From: Candidatus Absconditabacterales bacterium
GTDB taxonomy: Bacteria; Patescibacteriota; Gracilibacteria; Absconditabacterales; Absconditicoccaceae
Direction of reading: 5' to 3'
Assembly: GCA_025057375.1 (NCBI GenBank)
Contig: JANWWO010000011.1
Span: 1-58,529, forward strand
DNA length: 58,529 bases
In this document: positions 142-47,300 of the stretch, piece after piece
Layout: each line of letters starts with the position of its first letter
How positions within the stretch are numbered: the first letter of the stretch is position 1
The notes under the pieces: generated by a model
Databases searched by the model: none
What the model was told of the DNA's origin: nothing
The model's input: only the letters and a program-made list of their open reading frames with translations
Program-made: the position numbers and the translations under genes

Positions 142-183
142 CATTATATGCATGATGCATTTTTATCTTTATGACCAACAATC

Positions 184-1020
184 ATGGAACGGAAAAAAAA
201 ACTCAAAAAATTTGCACCTATCTCACTTGAGCATCTCAATGCCCAAATGGAACTTATGGAAAGAATTGACAAAAAATATATTGTCATGGCTGATGATCTT
301 CCTCTTATTCTCGAATCCTTGACAAAAGATTATGCAATTTTGACTATTCAAGGGAAACAATACTTCGACTACAAAACGATGTATATGGATACAAAGACAC
401 TCGATAGTTTCCTTGCTCATCAGGATAAACATGACAAAAGACGAAAAGCAAGATCAAGACTCTATGTCGATAGTAATATAGCATTTTTTGAATGCAAAAT
501 TAAGGATGGCATGACAAGAAAATATAGATATGCTATCGACCCATATGATTATGGCATCCCAACACCACAATCACAACTCTTTGTAGGAGAGATCGTTCGT
601 TCTCATCTTCGTACAGATCTTACAGCTCCTCTAGTGCCAGAATTGGAAGTGTTGTATACAAGAATCACGCTCTGCAATAGAAAAACCAATGAAAGAGTAA
701 CTATTGATACAAATCTCAGTTTTCGCAATCCAGATCATCATGATATCTTTTCACTCCCTCATATCGCTATTATTGAAGCAAAAACCCAATCAGACAACGC
801 ACACTTTGATCGTGTAATTGGTAATTTTGGGTATCAACCTATGTCAGCCTGCTCAAAATACTGTCTAGGTATGATCTACACCAGAAGAGTAGAAGAATGG
901 ACAACATTTGCACGTACGATTTCTCATATCTCATTTCTCTCACTACACCATCAATCCACTCTCCAAAAAAAAAGAAGAGATAGAAAAAAAAACCTCAATA
1001 TCATCGCTCAAATCAAATAG
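184..1020 (+). CDS. VTC-domain protein (polyphosphate-polymerase-like)
   Basis: A 278-residue protein that fits the VTC family, the catalytic tunnel domain of eukaryotic vacuolar transporter chaperone polyphosphate polymerases, which is also widespread in bacteria. Visible family features are the N-terminal E-RIDKKY segment (about residues 26-32), a Y-F-D-Y-K-T-MY-D stretch near residue 60, the basic KRRKARSRLY strand near residue 90, the FECKIKDG strand near 103 (acidic/basic tunnel residues), and IEAKT near residue 200 where VTC proteins carry a metal-binding Glu. It ends in a basic tail rich in Lys and Arg. It has its own promoter and terminator, so it looks monocistronic. Unusually for this window it contains no TGA codon. 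Whether it makes polyphosphate is inference from the family. Confidence 0.75.
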   Translation: MERKKKLKKFAPISLEHLNAQMELMERIDKKYIVMADDLPLILESLTKDYAILTIQGKQYFDYKTMYMDTKTLDSFLAHQDKHDKRRKARSRLYVDSNIAFFECKIKDGMTRKYRYAIDPYDYGIPTPQSQLFVGEIVRSHLRTDLTAPLVPELEVLYTRITLCNRKTNERVTIDTNLSFRNPDHHDIFSLPHIAIIEAKTQSDNAHFDRVIGNFGYQPMSACSKYCLGMIYTRRVEEWTTFARTISHISFLSLHHQSTLQKKRRDRKKNLNIIAQIK

Positions 1021-26940: not shown

Positions 26941-29900
26941 ATGGTTCAATTTGATGATTTGGGCAATTTATTTGAGAATAACACGAGTACACAACCACAA
27001 GCAATCAAGACGCCAGCGTCTCCAACCCCCTCACCAAACACTCTACCAAATTCTCTCCAGGTCGATGTATCACTGGATAAACTCTTTTGACCATCATCAC
27101 AGGGATGAGGCACAAATACACAAAGTACCATACATCCATCATCTCCTCAAACTCCAATACAGCAAACTCCAATACAGCAAACACCCACACCAAAATTCCA
27201 TTTTGCGTGACCATCATCCATAACAAAAACTGATACCAACCAACATACGGATATCCCACAGCCCTCTATCCCCACATCACCAATACACTCATCAATCAAC
27301 CAATTAACCGATGGCACTACACAACCAGCACACTCTATCCCTCCGATAACACAACCGTCACCATCACAAACGTCGATCGAACCAATTCCAGCAATCCCAC
27401 ACGAAGAAATCACCATAAAACACTCTCAAGAAAAGAACACTCCCACCATCGCACACACACAAGAGCAACTCCCGTGAGCAAGCATAGACCACCACAAATC
27501 CACCATACCTACCTCCCCAGTACTACAAGAACATAATCAAGCAGCATCACAATGACAAGAGACGCCATCAGCACAAATCCCACTTCACGATAACCCCACT
27601 CCCTCCCCAACAACCGAACCAACAAAAGTAGAAACATGACAAGAGACATCATCACACAACCCATTCCATAATGACCCCACTCCTAAGCTAACAACCGAAT
27701 CAACAACATTACCAAAAGAAGAAAACACCAAAAACACAACCAAAGAAAAAAATAAAAAAACAGAGGAGATTATCGCGCCAGATCTCCCACCTATGATCTG
27801 ATCTCTTCAACCCAAGGCTGCTGACATGATCATCACCTCTGCACCAAAAAAGAAGCTCGAACCAAGCATCACAACAATCGAGGATATCGCAGTTTCTGCA
27901 GAAAGAAAACCAGATATCAAACCCACAATCAAAAGAACAAAAATTAACCCAAAAGTTTTCCTTTTTGGGTGTATCTGATTGTTGTTTCTTATGCTCCTTT
28001 TGGTCTGATGAGGATTATTTTATTTCCTTGCACATCCACAACAACTCAATGGCATCATGGATCCGCAAACAGTAGCAGCCCTCCTCAAAATTATCACGAC
28101 GGTCTTTTTTGGATTTTTGTTCTTTTTAGGATTTGGTTTTCTAACTATCAACCTCTACAGACTCATCGTCCTCAAAAATGTTGCCAAAATGTGATTTGGA
28201 ATTGGAGCTTTTATCTGAGGCATTCTTGTGATTGGATCTTTGGTGATGGGAAAAAATGCATTGGATAAAATTTTTGCAATGGACAATCAACAAATGGCAG
28301 CATCTGATGATCTTCTCTTTGTCAATATTCCACTCAGGAAAAATAACGAAGTAGTATTTGCAGCAATGCACCAAAACCCTGGATTACGCCTGATTGCACC
28401 AATCCAAACCTACTATGAACTCAACAATGCAGTATTCCCAAGAATTTTGGTTCAGCAAATTGGATCAGACATCCTGACATCTATCCAACTTGAGTGTGGA
28501 AATGGGCAGATATTGCCACTCATGGCTGGATGATCAAAATTTGATTGATACTGTTATTTCCTGACCAAAGGAGAAAAAACACTCAATATTGTCCTCAATT
28601 ATAATTCCAGAGCTTCCTGAGCTCCCGGCCAAAAAAAAATTCCTTTCCCTGTGAATGTTGCAAGTGAAATTATCTTGACAACATCACAAGGAAGCTATAC
28701 TGTCAATGAAGCACAAACGGAAATATCATTTGGTAAAGCTCCCCAAAGACTATTTTTGGATGCAAGAAATGTATTTACTGATCTTGCACTCCCAAGCTAT
28801 CGTATTTCGTGGGACACGACCAACGATGGCGAATACAATATCAAAGATCTTTCATCAATTGTTACTAGATTCAATGAACCAGGAACACAAACCGTGCGAT
28901 ATACCATTCCTGATATCGGCGACTTCGTCTATCCTCTCACCTTCAAAATAGAACAAAGCGACGTCCCTATCTGTCAGGTCAAATTAGAAAACATCAGAGG
29001 AGTCACGTATAATATCATCGCAGACTGTGAAGAAGAAAACTGACCAGTTGTCAAGTATGATTTTGCCATTATCAACGAAAATACCAATACAAGAGTCGAT
29101 CTGATCTCATCAAGAAGACCACAAGTCAAATATGATTTCCCATCGAGAGGAAACTTTCTCGTGAGGCTCTCTCATTCGACACAAGATGGCAAAATAGGAT
29201 TTGCAGAGTCGGATACACTAGATATCGGAGATGTTGATTTCACCGTGAGTTACGATATGTTTTTTAGAGAGGCAAATGATAGACAATGGAGAGGATTTGA
29301 TAATACGACCGATCATGTTTTTTCCAAAACTGACCAAACAATCACACTCCAAAGAATTCCAGTCAGACTTCAAATGAGAATCAATGGGATCATCCCCGTC
29401 CTCCAAGGAACAAACGTCAGTGTATTTTTGGACAATGAACCTATCATTGCCTCAGACGATGGCCTCTATGCAATGACAATAACCAATCCAAACAATCAAG
29501 TCCTCAAAGTAATCATCACAAACCAACAGGCACAAGCAGAAACTACGATGGAAATTCCGATCATCATCAATCAACCCAAAGTCATTCCTGCACTCACCGT
29601 TACTCCTGATTATGTGGGAGAATCTCCTTTTACTGTGACTTTTGATGCGTCAGCAACATCTGTGACAGATCCTGATGACCAAATTGTCTTTTTTTCATGG
29701 GATTTTGGCGATGGGAAAATCAACAAGAACACCTCCCAAGGAATTATTCAACACCAATATAGTTACAATGACGAAGAAGAAATGGGAGTTTTCAACCCGG
29801 TTGTCACTATCCAAACAAGAAAATGACTCACACATGAAGTGCATCTTGACAAACCTATTACCGTCACCAAACCAACACAAAGAGCAAGAATCAATATTGA

Positions 29901-32796: not shown

Positions 32797-34248
32797 TTAT
32801 TTTCCCTCAATCTTCACAAACGGAATCTGTGGCTCTTTCCCACGAACGATACCAAAACATCTCGCCATCCCCGCAGGAATCACGGGCTCATACAGCTGAC
32901 ACAAACGCACAATAACCGTATACGAATCACGCAAAATCGCAGTCCTCTCCTCCTTGCTCAATATTCTGTCTCGCGGTTTACTATTGTCAAATACTTTGTT
33001 TGCCCATAGTCACAACGTGTGAATCCCATGACAGGCACGATACAAGTCATACTCACCCATGGCATCCTCAATAACTTTTTCGCCATCAGCCCACGCACGA
33101 GCCCACTCCTGATTGGTCAAAGCAGTACCATCACCAAGGTCTGTCCCATATTTTTTCCCAAGCACCAACACACGATTGATCAAATTACCCAACGTATCAC
33201 AAAGCCACGCATTGTGCAACGCCACCATATCCGCAGGCACAAAACTTGCATTCCCATACGTCGGTATCCCAGCCAATACATACAACCTCACCGCATCAAC
33301 GCCATACCTATTTTTCATCTCAAAAGGAGAAATCACATTCCCCAACGTTTTGGACATTTTGTTACCATCAGGACCAAAAACTGTGCCATGAACAAGGAGT
33401 TTGTAGGTGTGCGGAGCACCTATTGCCTCAAGCATTGCCTGCCAAATCCCTCATTGAAATCTGAGATTATCTGGACCACAGAACTGGATCGATTGAGATC
33501 GCCAATCCACAAAAGACGGATCTGGATAGCCACACGCACCAATATAATTAGACAAAGCATCAAACCAGACATACATCACATGATCATCATCATCAGGCAC
33601 AGGCACACCTCGATTCAACGTCTCACGACGACGAGAAATAGACAAATCTTCCAAATCAAGCAAATAATTACGCAGTTCCTCCCTTTTGGATTTTGGGTAC
33701 AAAAAATCAGGATGTGCATCAAACCAGGCAAGCAAACGATCACGAAGATGAGACATCAAGAAAAAATAGTTTTCCTCTTCCATCTGAACAAGCTTTTGTC
33801 ACGGGTGGTCTGGGCATTCTCCGTTGACGAGATCCTTATCTTTTTTAAATAATTCACATCAGAGACAGTAGTTACCACCATAGGTTTTTTTGCCAAGCAA
33901 TCAGTTTTTTTTGACCTCATTTCGCAATGTCTGAGCAACAGGATAATGGCTAAGCAAACTCGTACGATAAAAAGAATCGTACCCAATACCAAAAGATGAA
34001 CAAAAATCAACAAATGTAGCAACATTCTGAGAAACAAAATCACTGACACTTAGTCATGCCTCATGTGCTTTTTGTCGGATTTTTTGACCGTGTTCATCAG
34101 TCCCAACATTAAAACGGACGTTGTCTGCTCCATAACGAAATTTGAGCCAACGAGCAAGAAAATCTGCTTGGATAAATTCGAGTGCATGACCCATATGAGG
34201 CTGTGCATTAACATAAGGAAGGGTCGTTGTAAGAAAAAAACGAGACAT
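32797..34248 (-). CDS. metG: Methionyl-tRNA synthetase
   Basis: 483 residues. HIGH-type motif HMGH is at residues 18-21, and a zinc knuckle C-x2-C...C-P-D-H near residue 130 (N-Y-C-L-G-C-E-L, G-E-C-P-D-H). The V-W-F-D-A-L-S-N-Y-I block precedes a KMSKS loop (K-M-S-K-T) near residue 296. A short anticodon-binding domain follows, and there is no C-terminal dimerisation or EMAP domain. Six TGA codons, for example the Gly-Gly around F-Q-G-G-I-W-Q and the Gly of C-L-G-C in the zinc site. Monocistronic by appearance; upstream lies the structured-RNA region. Confidence 0.95.
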
Positions 34249-34495
34249 AAAAAAGATCCTAAATAAAATTTTTGTAGACACCACTATCACTATAGTATTT
34301 TTTACTGATAATGCAAGAGCAACACATCCTCATCACCTAACACATACAATAATGGATAACCCTTTATATTTGTCAATCATTATGTCTTTTGTTTTGATAT
34401 TATATCACAATTACAGAAAAATGTGCAAACAATCTGTTTGCGGAAAATGACAGAGAATACTTTCTTTTTTCTCACAAATCATTACTCTCATACTA

Positions 34496-34708
34496 GAACA
34501 CAAAGTGTTCCACATTGTATGCAATGTGTAGCGGTTTAGGAATTCCACCCGGAATAACAAACCAACCAGAGGTGATCCACATATTCTCAATTATGTTATA
34601 GCGTTGTGTTGGCGTCAAGTACACCATGACTCTATCACATGATTGTATCGAATCATGTGGTGGGTCACCTCGAAAGAGGTCGATCTGTATCCAGATTGAT
34701 TTTTTTTT
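34496..34708 (+). ncRNA. Probable structured noncoding RNA, family unknown
   Basis: Six hairpins follow one another in about 210 bases: GAACAC/GTGTTC (34496-34510), CACATTG/CAATGTG (34511-34528), a two-part helix GGTTT...AAACC enclosing ATTCC/GGAAT (34533-34563), a 10-bp closing helix GGTGATCCAC (34571-34580) with GTGGGTCACC (34660-34669) enclosing CACATGATT/AATCATGTG (34636-34659), a GAAA tetraloop stem ACCTC/GAGGT (34667-34680, partly competing with the closing helix), and ATCTG/CAGAT followed by nine T residues (34683-34708), which is a terminator. A further hairpin GCAAACA/TGTTTGC lies upstream at 34425-34441. The sequence lacks the conserved cores of tmRNA, RNase P, 4.5S and 6S RNA that I know. 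An open frame on the opposite strand has no ATG near its beginning. Confidence 0.6.
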
Positions 34709-34743
34709 ATAGTAAAAAAAATCATTTTTTTATAACAGCAAAA

Positions 34744-37134
34744 TTATTTTGGTGCTGCTTGTACCTTTCCAAAAAAATCTCTACTCGTCTGTCTCAAGCT
34801 ATGCGTCATCTCAACCATCTCCTGCCAAAATTGAGCGTTCGTATCAACAAACGTCACAACTTCATCACTAATAGCAGCACGCATCGCATTATTGTTGGCT
34901 TGCATCAAAAGTTGAGCATTTGCACTACGTCTCTGCGTAGAAAGATCACGAGCTTCCTGCTGACTACGCATCATCGATTCTAAATCATTTGCTACATCAA
35001 ACTGTTTATCATATGCCTGTGGATTATGACCAACGAGATACTTGTTTCTTTCTCCTCTAGATTCCAATGATCACGCAAATCCACGCATAGTATTGGATAA
35101 TTGACGAAGTTCTTCTTCTTGTTTTTGTTGAGCTTGCGAACCCAGAACGGGCGCAAAAATTGGTTTTGTTTTCACAAAAAACGTAATACCCAGTGTATCA
35201 AAAAAATTATTTTCTTGGACGGCTGTTTCAAACATCTCACGTGTTTTTGTGTGTTTAATAATTTTACCACTTTCTTTTCTTTCTACCAAAACATTCAAAA
35301 TCTCGGTCACAATTTCTTGGATAGACATCACGGATTTTGGTCTTTTGGTAGCTGGAGTGATCACTACTGGCACTCTACAAAACCTTACTTTATAACTAAA
35401 TTGAGGAGAAAACATACTATTCCCCAATTTTTGATTGTCAGGACCAGAAATCTCACCACATAAGCATTGAGATAAACATACAAGTCTATCGGTTCCACGA
35501 AAATTGGCATTACACTCTTTTCTACAACAATTCGCTTCACATAGTTCCTGTTTAAATGGATTGGGTTGTGAAGAAATCATCTTACAGAGCTGACGAGATT
35601 GAGGAAGATGTTGGGACCCAAGAGAAGAACATAGAGGCATAAGATTTGGCGTACGTGCCTCAATCTGTCTACAGAGTTGTTGTGCCGTCGGTTCACGAAT
35701 CGTGATAAGCGAACAGATATCAGGAGCATCTGGAAATTGCTGACGCATCTGCGTACACAAAGAAATAGCATTTTGTCTCTCATTTTCGATAGCACGACAT
35801 ACGATAGCAAATCAGGACTGTGAGCGCGCATATTGATCGCATTCCCTAAGAGCATTCGTATTTTTAGTAGTCCACTGCGCACATACAGCAGCAGCCTCAT
35901 CATATCAACCAAGCCTACACTGCATTTTACAGTCAGCAGGTTCTTTTTCTCATTCCTGCGTTTGATCACGTGTAGCAGTTCTCTGTGAGCCATTATCTCA
36001 CATTCCTTCATCTCACCATCCAGCAATTCTCTCCTGAAGACTGGGATCAAAAGGAAACTTCCCCAAAGCAAGCAACGCCTCCCATTGCGTACGCAAACCA
36101 TCAAGATGCGACTCCCATGCTTCTAAACTTGGTAACTCACCCGTTTCGTCAAGCATCTCATCAATTTGATCCAAGCATTGATTGGCAAATTGAAGGGGGG
36201 TATAACGTGATGATAGTGTATTCTGGGGAGAGTTTTGATTTTGCGCATTGATGAGCGATGTGACACGACCCAAGGGAGACGATGGTGAGTCAACTACTGG
36301 CAAAAAAGATCAATCTGACCCTCATCATGTGGTATCTTCAATTGAATCCTGAGTTGATCACGAGGGTTGCTGAGACGATGAAGATGCAGACGATCATGCT
36401 TGATTTTGTGCAGAAGACTGATTTTTTTGTGTAGCTGTATTCGATACTCTGACACTTGGCATCTCAAAAAAAGGAGCAATAGGAACCTCATCATGTTGTT
36501 CAAACATAATTTTGTCAATAGCACTAATATCAACAAGTAAATCATATGCACCATTCTCAGGATCTCCATCCACAAAAATATTTTGCCCTACAATCCCTGC
36601 AGATATATCCTGCTGCATAGATGTACTTGATTCTTGCATTACAAATGCACGTGTCACATCACGAATACATTCGCTATAATACACTTTTTGTTGTCTTTGC
36701 GATTCAGTCAACGATGGATATTTACACGCAATAACACGCTCACATGCTTGTGCAAAACGATCAAAATGGATTGATGTTGGCGTATATAATCATGCTATAT
36801 GAGTAAATTGTTCTCTAATATCACGATTTTGGTACAAAATAATCCCAATATCTTGATCATTAAGACGACATACCCCACCAAACATCTCATTCAGATACTG
36901 TCTTGTGAGAGACATTCATCATACAACACGTGTTGCTTGATTTTCTTGAAGTCTTGCCAATGCTGTCTTGTACAAATCTCACTTCTCAGTTTGTTTGAGA
37001 ATGGTTTTATCAACGGGTTTTTTTTGAAAACGAGAAAAAACTCATTGAACGAGACTATCGATCGTTGCTCGCGACTGAGCAGCCGCTACTCACCAAGAAA
37101 AAAACACAATACACAAAAAAAGGAAAATGTGCAT
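34744..37134 (-). CDS. Exported Cys-rich protein, unidentified
   Basis: 796 residues. Residues 1-20 form a signal peptide (M-H-I-F-L-F-L-C-I-V-F-F, then A-A-A-Q-S). The mature protein is largely helical, with Ser/Gly/Gln-rich linkers near residues 240-290, and a Cys-rich middle (residues 390-560) containing C-K-M-Q-C, C-C-R-K-E-C and C-L-S-Q-C-L-C-G segments that suggest disulfides or metal sites. The C-terminal 130 residues are rich in Gln, Arg and Met. A dozen TGA codons. Secretion and Cys content resemble the two large surface proteins downstream, but there is no clear sequence homology. It is divergent from argS. Confidence 0.7.
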
Positions 37135-37415
37135 GAAAAATACTATCACAAAACAAAAACTATTATAAATATAGCAATAAACATCGTATTTGTCAAAAAA
37201 CAATGACCAATCATCAAAAACACTACATCTCCTCAGTAGCACAAAAAGAGAAAAACTCACCTTCACGATCAGATCACAACAAATTCACGTACAATCTCAT
37301 ATCACTTACTTCTCTAATAAAACAACGTCAACACAATGATTACTCTTGCATTTTGCTCAAAACTCAATACATACACACAAAGCAAACAACTATTTTTATT
37401 TTCCTTTCTATTGTC

Positions 37416-39186: not shown

Positions 39187-39269
39187 AACACTTGCAGTCA
39201 AAAAATAAATACATATTGTAAAAGTCCTCATTGTGTCAGATAGACATATTTTATGAGGCTTTTTGTATA

Positions 39270-40082
39270 ATGACATTTAACTTCAAACATCGACCAAAAC
39301 AAACATCGTGCTCTGAACTTTTCAAAAACCTTCCACAAAATGAGTATGGAGTATATGATACTATCTTAGCAACAAGGGTATATATCATTATGGCGATTGC
39401 AGAAAAAACATTCAATCCAACCATCATAAAAAACATCCTCCAACTCCTAGATAGAGCAAATGAAATAGCGTTTTCTTTCCAACTTCACGAACACTTAGAT
39501 ATTCCATCCTATAACGATATCAAAGTAATAATTGAACAAGAAGATCGCGAAGCACGGAGCTCACAAGGAACAAATCGTCAATCTAGCTACAACTACCATC
39601 ACATCATCCCAAAAAAATGACACAAAAATCAAGAAAATGGATCCCAAATCATCAACAGCTGTCATGCCAAAGACACAAATATCAAAAATGGAATAATAAT
39701 ACTCAACCAGCAATCAAAAATACGATCTGACCTGTATATGACCTATCCTCTACCAACCAACCTATCGACTAATGGACGATTTTTTGGTGCAGATCTCAAC
39801 TGCAATATTATCGGGATGAAACAAAAAAGACACAATCAATGACTCAACGCTAGATATGATGGCAACATGCTCCCCCACCATATGATCCTCGCAGAACTAC
39901 TATATGCTGCTGAGATGTGGAATACCAACGAAATACTCAAAAAAATAAAGCAAGATATTATCGCGTTATTCAAAAACAAACCCATCGAAGAAATTTATAA
40001 TCGTGAATGTTTTGTCATCGTGACAGAAAAAGGAACAATTCTCAATCCTCATGACCCACACAGTCATGAAAATATATCATAG
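39270..40082 (+). CDS. Hypothetical protein with HH nuclease-like motif
   Basis: 270 residues. An N-terminal helical part (residues 1-90) is followed by N-Y-H-H-I-I-P-K-K-G-H-K (about residue 105), which resembles the His-His start of HNH/AHH nuclease domains, then N-G-I-I-I-L, a Y-P-L-P segment and a distinctive N-Q-W-L-N-A-R-Y-D-G-N-M-L-P-H-H-M-I-L-A end block. The nuclease idea is inference from the HHIIP motif alone; a matching third ligand is not certain. It has a paralogue immediately downstream. A hairpin with CCTCA/TGAGG and T-rich tail overlaps its leader and probably terminates argS. Confidence 0.6.
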
Positions 40083-44358: not shown

Positions 44359-47300
44359 ATGCGATTACTTTTGATTGTAGGACTACGGTTCCTAGGTTGA
44401 CAGAGTATATATGCACAGCAACTACCAGCCTGTGGCCCGCTCAATGCCTATGTTTTCCCATCGACAGGAACATCATGGAATAATGCACTTCCTAATATTT
44501 GATGATCAAGTATCACAAATGCAAGTTTTTGTGCACAAGGAACTTTGGTCACAGGATCGATTCCTTGATGGGATGCTCAAACACAGCCTTTCCCACTGTT
44601 TTTCCCCAATTCAACATTATCAACATCATGGCAATGTACAGGATCCTGACAAACGATTCAATGTACATCCTACAAAGATCAATGCAATAACAATCTTGAC
44701 TGCGGACCTAATAGAGTGTGTAATATCAATGCAACGCCAAATATTTGTGCATCTAATATCGCTGATCCACTCTGTTGACCAGCCGATGGATATCAGTTCC
44801 TCTTTAGTGATAATGCCTGGCTTGATCATTCTCTATACCAACAAACAATTGCAACCAATAGATTTTTTTGTGCACAAGGAACAGTGAGCGGATGAGTAGC
44901 TCCAACCTTCCCATGAGCATGAGCAACAGTCAGACGACAATGTGTAGGACAACCATGAACCAATCCAGCATTCTGTGAAGCAAGTAAAGCAGATTGTACT
45001 AATGGTACAGACTGTCCTGAATGTGGCATCAACTATGGATTATATACAAGCCTTGATACAACATGGAAAAATCCTTCTGTATGATGATTTTGTATCAATA
45101 GTTCTATTATCAATATTTGATCACAAACAATACCGCAATTCCCTCTTCCCATTTCACGTACATGACTTTCAGAAATCAACCGAACATGTGAGAATACAAA
45201 CAAAACAAAAAATGTCCAATGTAGAGCCTATATCCCTGCCATCAATGCATGTGGTATCAATGCATGAATTTATCTCAATGGACAACATACCTGGAACTCA
45301 AACACTACCTTCCCAACATTCCCAAATCCTGATACAGGATTTTGTAAGGTAGGAATACCTTTTTGGAATACGCCGATTCAGTTTCCCACACCGTGAGAAA
45401 GAACAAATAACAGAATCAGATTACAACGAATCTGCGATATCAACGGAGACAGATCACAGACATGTTCTGCAACCCTTGATCCTGTCAATAATGGAACATG
45501 TGGTATCAATGCGTGATCATACTCATGATGATCAAATAATCGACGTTCGACCAATCTTACCTGATTTTGTCAATCATGATCTTACCTCTGACCTATGTCA
45601 GGGAACAATTTTATTCCATTCCCCCAAAGAGATCAGAGAATCTGATCATGACCTATAACGATTCAACGAACATGTACAACGGTCCAATGATGAGTCAATA
45701 GCGCATGTAAAGCAATAATCCATCCCATCCCTCAATGTGGCATCAATGCAACCAGACCCTATACACCATCATCAATGCAATGGTACAGTAGTGGCAATAC
45801 ATGATTCTGTTTGGGATGAGCATTTCAAGGCATTCTGAGCGATTTTCTTCCTCCATTCCCCGATCCAGTAGAAAGATTATCAGGCACATTGCTCGTACCT
45901 TGGTCATGTAGAAATGATGTCTGAGAATCAGTAGAATGTGGCGCAAAGTTTCCTGAAATTAATGTCTGTGGACAAAATGCCAGATATTATTGATTCTGGG
46001 ACACAAATTGGCTGTATGGATCGACAACAGCAAGTAATCCTGCATGAATCACCAATACTAATAGTTGATTTTGTTTGGTCGGAGAACCAAAATGGAATGG
46101 TTTTTTGCGTTTCCCAACTCCACAAGAAAGACTAATCGCCAACCCATCATGGCAATGAACAATTCCTACAATGTTCAACTCAGGGCTCCCCACTATTAAA
46201 CTTCGTTGGTTTTGTGTCATAAATAACATCAATTATCCTTTATGTACAGCAGACATTGCTCCTATTCAAATGGGCACATGTGGCCCAAATGCAAGAGAAT
46301 ATGGACTCAATGATTCGAACTGGACACAAGACTCTCAATCATGATTTTGTATCAGTGGTATTTTTTCATGACTGCAAGAACACTATGATTTTTCGCGTTA
46401 TGATAGAACAGTAAGAAATGATGTCATCCGATGATGTGTCAGTCCAGAATGATGAATGGGACAAGTCGATACCTGCCTTGCTGTTATTCATCAAAAACCA
46501 GAATGTGGAACGAATGCAACAACCTACTATGGCTATCAAACAACATGGAGTGGCACAACCGCAACCGACTTTTGTAAACGTGGGACATTAGTCCAAACGA
46601 CAAGTAGCCCCATACCACGTTTCCCTTTGATAACTGATAGACAGCCATGTAATGTTACACACTCTTGATCAATGTGTCCTCCCAAAGTATGGAACTATAG
46701 TAACAATAACTACACAACCTGTACGCCTTGAGGAACAGGTCAATTTGGATGTGCAATCATATCGGATCCTGACGATACACTAGTTCAACGAGAATGTCGT
46801 GATCCACTTGGTCAATCACTTGTGTGTAATGCTATTGTCAAACCTTTTGATCCGTGTGGAGAGAATGCAAGAAATTATCGTTATCGACAAAAAAATCGAC
46901 ATCGTGGACAAGCATTCCCCACCAATACAAGTAGTGGATTTTGTACCGTATGAATACCATGATGGTACAAAAATAACTGGGCTCCATTTTTTTGATCACG
47001 ATATCCTACTGATGGTCCCAACCCTGTCCCCTTTCCTACTGATCAAGAAAGAACTGATAAAATAGTTGATAGAAGACGATTTTGTGCTGTACCGAATGGT
47101 GATGGATCATTCAATACGGACCATCTTTGTACTGCAACTTTTGAACCAGTGTTCCATGGAGACTGCGGTGTCAATGTCTGATATTATTCATGATTTGATA
47201 CAGAATGGAGAGATGCAAGTCTTACATGATTTTGTAAATATGGACTTTTTTCATGAATCCACTCAACCAATACCCCACGAGCATTCCCTTCATTTAATCA

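Follow-up and report, generated by a model that had tools for sequence, protein, structure and literature searches.

The region analysed here lies at positions 34496-34709 on the plus strand of the window, that is, the whole stretch of 58,529 nucleotides (58.5 kb). It comprises 214 intergenic bases with metG on one side. The metG gene (32797-34248, minus strand), which encodes methionyl-tRNA synthetase in genetic code 25 (PF09334, E 6e-73), is oriented divergently, and consensus matches mark a divergent promoter region for both strands at 34349-34440. On the minus strand, the motif TGCACA-17-TATAAT with a TG (extended -10) at 34427-34399 is probably the metG promoter, judged from its match to the consensus, which would place the structured region upstream of the metG transcript. 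The plus strand candidates were weak, the best being TTGTCA-17-TTTGAT near 34370, and the consensus scan of the upstream region yielded no strong plus strand promoter for the structured RNA. On the other side, an uncharacterised protein is encoded convergently at 34744-37137 (minus strand). A Pfam search with this protein gave no match. The gene is nevertheless considered to be real, because relatives were found at the protein level in 17 of 25 genomes, this one counted. It follows that no plus strand gene lies downstream of the structured RNA, and a cis-acting riboswitch or attenuator is therefore not supported, in agreement with the first-pass annotation, which had noted that a riboswitch would have no same-strand gene directly 3' of it. 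A protein-coding reading was also rejected, as the open reading frames over the structured region had neither a Pfam match nor a convincing tblastn match.

The predicted fold of 34494-34712 on the plus strand has a minimum free energy (MFE) of -80.5 kcal/mol, compared with -48.3 +/- 4.2 kcal/mol for 200 dinucleotide shuffles (z -7.63), and none of the 200 shuffles matched this energy. The structure is thus stable beyond shuffled sequence, as is asked of a stand-alone non-coding RNA. The 194 nt immediately 5' of the region are unstructured (z -0.22), so that structure begins abruptly with the first hairpin, H1 (34496). When 200-nt windows on both strands of the 58.5 kb were compared, the region accounted for four of the five top scores and was the strongest among 586 samples. 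The ranking was extended to the whole genome (1.129 Mb, 21 contigs), with intergenic regions set by our own simple ORF calling. Among 336 intergenic regions of at least 100 nt (86 kb), the structured region ranked second by composition-corrected MFE, and the first rank was held by a CRISPR array (C11:100-420).

The consecutive helices that the first-pass annotation had described over about 210 bases were all recovered in place or a few bases off, with one exception that is treated below. The 5' part consists of three elements on the plus strand. H1 is a perfect 6-bp hairpin, GAACAC-AAA-GUGUUC (34496-34501/34505-34510, pair probabilities 0.97-0.99), which could alternatively be a DNA palindrome or operator. 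H2 is a perfect 7-bp hairpin, CACAUUG-UAUG-CAAUGUG (34511-34517/34522-34528, 0.99-1.0). H3 is formed by GGUUU and AAACC (34533-34537/34559-34563) and has an inner stem, AUUCC-ACCC-GGAAU (34542-34546/34551-34555), both with pair probabilities of 0.96-1.0.

The central domain is enclosed by a long-range helix of 12 bp, P1, formed by GAGGUGAUCCAC and GUGGGUCACCUC with one G.U pair (34569-34580/34660-34671, plus strand). The outer pairs have probabilities of about 1.0 and the innermost pair of 0.59. This helix had been recognised before as a 10-bp element (34571-34580/34660-34669); its presence was borne out and its length had to be corrected. A helix of at least 12 bp with at most one G.U pair occurred in 2 of 300 shuffles. 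Within P1, an imperfect apical stem, Pa (34598-34635, plus strand), is predicted, the two lower segments of which have pair probabilities of 0.87-0.99 and the top of 0.73-0.86. Two segments compete for pairing with the strand 34636-34645 and exclude each other. Pairing with 34588-34596 generates P2 (34588-34596/34637-34645, plus strand, p 0.65-0.68) and a continuous rod, and pairing with 34651-34659 generates the perfect 9-bp hairpin Pb (34636-34644/34651-34659, plus strand, p 0.32) which joins P1 and Pa in a tight three-way junction. The 9-bp hairpin had been described as closing directly against the long-range helix. It does abut P1, but it loses to P2 in the ensemble (0.32 versus 0.68). The best structures of the rod and the three-way junction are about 1.4 kcal/mol apart, and the modelled ensemble suggests that the P1 domain may exchange between the two forms. 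A comparable competition for pairing was seen in 22 of 300 shuffles (7%).

The last stem is an intrinsic terminator, UCGAUCUG-UAUC-CAGAUUGA (34680-34687/34692-34699, plus strand, p 0.98-1.0), which is followed by a U run to about 34708. The 8-bp stem can be extended upstream to 34672, where GAAAGAGG pairs with the U run. A generic scan did not list 34680-34708, so that the call is based on the predicted fold together with the sequence. The 3' terminator proposed in the first-pass annotation was thus found again. This was not the case for a separate GNRA tetraloop stem, CCUC-GAAA-GAGG (34668-34671/34676-34679), the pairing probability of which is about 0 in the ensemble; imposing it costs about 11.5 kcal/mol in the fold prediction. 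This hairpin is not predicted because CCUC is used by P1 and GAGG by the terminator stem, and the conformational switch that had been proposed from a stem overlap at 34667-34669 lost its basis with it. The own terminator and the lack of a downstream gene to be regulated in cis are the arrangement looked for in a stand-alone non-coding RNA gene.

The strand had to be considered as well, because the reverse complement also folds better than its shuffles (z -4.77). The structure could thus belong to a minus strand transcript, either at the end of the 34744-37137 gene, as its structured 3' UTR or its terminator zone, or as a far-upstream metG leader. Both neighbours are transcribed in that direction, and a terminator-like hairpin is present at 34441-34425 (minus strand). 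However, the minus strand fold is clearly worse than that of the plus strand (z -7.63), the G.U pairs of P1, P2, Pa, and the terminator turn into A-C mismatches, and the last stem is followed by a U run on the plus strand only. In addition, relatives of the convergent gene lack a similarly strong fold past their 3' ends. We therefore regard a minus strand origin as unlikely and the plus strand as the one that probably encodes the structured RNA.

To assign the structured RNA to a known family, the covariance models of Rfam 15 were searched, as the first-pass annotation had proposed. No family reached its gathering score anywhere in the 58.5-kb window, and the structured region itself gave chance-level matches only, the best being IS605-orfB-II (23.9 versus 88 bits). 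In the annotation, no conserved core of tmRNA, RNase P RNA, SRP RNA, or 6S RNA had been recognised, and none of these four assignments was supported here, in the case of 6S RNA as judged by the Rfam model. The genome has its RNase P RNA (RF00010) at G000:C17:49860-50202 and its tmRNA at G000:C19:62733-63126, and ARAGORN found no tmRNA in the window. SRP RNA is likewise a small structured housekeeping RNA, but the structured region has no match to its model, RF00169. Moreover, RF00169, TIGR00959 (Ffh), and PF00448 (SRP54 GTPase, which covers FtsY) were undetected in all 11 class genomes searched, i.e. this one and 10 relatives (9 of the 11 at least 90% complete), under conditions in which the positive controls were detected. 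Since SRP RNA and SRP54-type GTPases were undetected in each of these genomes, the structured RNA is not an overlooked SRP RNA. With 11 out of 11 genomes negative, the SRP pathway appears to be missing class-wide, which is an observation in its own right.

Two further assignments were rejected. The CRISPR array of the genome, at a contig end (L134 100-420, G000:C11:100-420), contains repeats with the sequence AAATTTCTACTATTGTAGAT, which we take to be of the Cas12a type; such systems need no tracrRNA, and a role of the structured RNA as tracrRNA was thus dismissed. The sequence GAGGTGATCCA in the region is the complement of the usual 16S rRNA 3' end, and a 16S mimic or anti-16S pairing was considered. 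This reading fails because the 16S rRNA of the organism itself ends with ...TGGACCACCTTTCT, to which GAGGTGATCCA is mismatched. The usual end is TGGATCACCTCCTTT, and the genome therefore has an altered anti-Shine-Dalgarno sequence (G000:C20, minus strand, about 46690-46760 in reverse-complement coordinates).

The comparison with 6S RNA (RF00013), a regulator that binds RNA polymerase and serves as template for product RNA, required more attention. Both are stand-alone RNAs with a closing helix, a centre with alternative pairing, an apical stem, and an intrinsic terminator, and the structured RNA could thus be a diverged 6S RNA, with P1 as the closing stem and the central domain as the rearranging loop. 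In its rod form the P1 domain looks like a closing stem, a bubble, and an apical stem. 6S RNA forms a hairpin following product-RNA synthesis, and the alternative hairpin Pb on the 3' side recalls it. The class also contains 6S-like RNAs: convincing sub-threshold Rfam candidates were found in three class genomes (L109 1501-1644, plus strand; L110 1501-1652, minus strand; L111 1501-1656, minus strand). However, RF00013 did not match the structured region at E values up to 10, and a family-specific model derived from a pair of 6S RNAs gave no match either. The 5' and 3' ends do not pair with each other in a closing stem around one large bubble, three additional hairpins (H1-H3) precede the domain, and the resemblance is confined to the internal P1 domain, which has 103 nt compared with 144-156 nt in the 6S matches of relatives. 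A better 6S-like intergenic candidate is present elsewhere in the same genome (G000:C11:78027-78116, minus strand); it has a 6S-like sequence and is the second-best, albeit weak, match of the family model (E 7.9). A diverged 6S RNA is thus very improbable.

Homologues of the structured region were not found. Blastn revealed none in 40 genomes, the other matches being short and of low complexity, and none in the plasmids and phages searched. The same method detected no further copies within the genome, and the region is therefore not a repeat element. A single-sequence covariance model identified no homologue in 49 family genomes, in a complete relative (G009), or in 288 class genomes. The top match among the latter (G126, E 2e-4 per genome) is merely a similar terminator between converging genes. 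A 20-nt exact match in a viral contig was attributed to chance, as it lies within a reading frame of 61% GC and its flanks differ. Synteny was of no help either. In 12 family genomes, metG has other upstream neighbours without a comparably strong fold. The stretch that follows the convergent gene was compared in up to 15 other genomes, where the neighbours likewise differ and no fold is as strong; with 12 shuffles per test, a few windows beyond the 3' ends of the gene's relatives reached z -4 to -4.9. When GTDB contigs were searched with metG, no close relative that shares the locus was retrieved. The sensitivity was controlled with known RNAs. In plain single-sequence searches, the RNase P RNA and tmRNA of the genome recovered most relatives with E <1e-4, and the structured RNA is therefore much less conserved than these two. 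One 6S RNA recovered another at E 0.21 only, and an RNA diverging at a 6S-like rate would thus evade a search by sequence.

A prediction from sequence alone, for which homologues were found nowhere in the searches, could also reflect a chance cluster of DNA palindromes, e.g. operators or a decayed element, next to a terminator, without any function as RNA. The two short perfect palindromes H1 and H2 are indeed operator-like. However, none of the 200 shuffles folded as well, the fold is the best intergenic one outside CRISPR in the 1.13-Mb genome, and one strand is energetically preferred, so that we consider a chance origin to be quite improbable.

In its size, its intergenic position, and the U-rich tail of its terminator, the structured RNA resembles a typical bacterial sRNA, as it does in having an own terminator and no ORF. 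It could thus act in trans as an antisense sRNA that regulates mRNAs by base-pairing. Runs of at least 11 nt complementary to gene starts were indeed more frequent than in shuffles (16 versus 6.9). Most of the longest runs are A-runs that match the U tail of the terminator. In contrast to typical intergenic sRNAs, nearly the whole structured RNA is paired; it has only short unpaired segments, and the best duplexes that these form with gene starts were no stronger than those of shuffled segments. Hfq was undetected in the 11 class genomes, although RNA pairing independent of Hfq is known elsewhere. We therefore think it unlikely that the RNA is an antisense regulator. As there is little unpaired sequence, no target signal, and no detectable Hfq, a structural or protein-binding role is favoured, and a role in protein binding appears to be more likely than that of an Hfq-type antisense sRNA. 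It is also the better guess because the fold is compact. The structured RNA may, with low certainty, be a compact folded body that acts as a whole by binding a protein or a larger machine. A chain of hairpins closed by a terminator is also characteristic of protein-sequestering RNAs of the CsrB/RsmZ type. Unlike these, the structured RNA has few GGA motifs, and none of them is repeated in hairpin loops, as judged by eye.

Taken together, we consider it probable that 34496-34709 is a stand-alone, lineage-restricted gene for a structured non-coding RNA on the plus strand. The fold, the plus strand bias, the terminator, the lack of a downstream cis gene, and the lack of a match to a known family are read directly from the sequence, and we infer that the candidate RNA is transcribed and under selection. 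The first-pass annotation had suggested a new structured RNA. A structured plus strand candidate outside Rfam is indeed present, and the data support an orphan RNA of a single lineage. Transcription would proceed divergently from metG, starting at a promoter within about 34370-34495 on the plus strand, and would end at the intrinsic terminator (34680-34708), beyond which the convergently oriented gene has its 3' end. The folded RNA would then act as a whole, probably via a protein or a machine, and the P1 domain may toggle. More speculatively, and with considerable doubt, the RNA could belong to a new structured RNA class, perhaps with a housekeeping role or a role at the level of RNA polymerase or the ribosome. 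Its central domain would toggle between the rod and the three-way junction, and in this reduced lineage with code 25 it would diverge so fast that it escapes recognition from one genus to another.

The open-access literature searched contained nothing about non-coding RNA in this bacterial group, and the non-coding RNAs of ultra-small recoded bacteria have apparently been little charted. The strongest fold of the genome outside CRISPR is a concrete target for RNA-seq. If it is transcribed, genomes with about 8% intergenic sequence would retain lineage-specific structured RNAs despite having no detectable Hfq or SRP.

A few additional loci were observed. The complete relative contains another orphan candidate for a structured RNA (L197, about 160-480, minus strand; G009:C1:120160-120480), with a promoter (TTGATT-17-TATAGT), a 12-bp closing helix, nested stems, and a directly abutting terminator; it had no Rfam match. 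Within the window, a strong local fold (z -5.35) was found at 28501-28700 (plus strand) inside a large gene encoding PKD domains. Lastly, the plus strand gene at 39231-40079 encodes a protein with a weak match to the AHH (HNH/Endo VII) nuclease domain, which makes a toxin-type nuclease a possible product.
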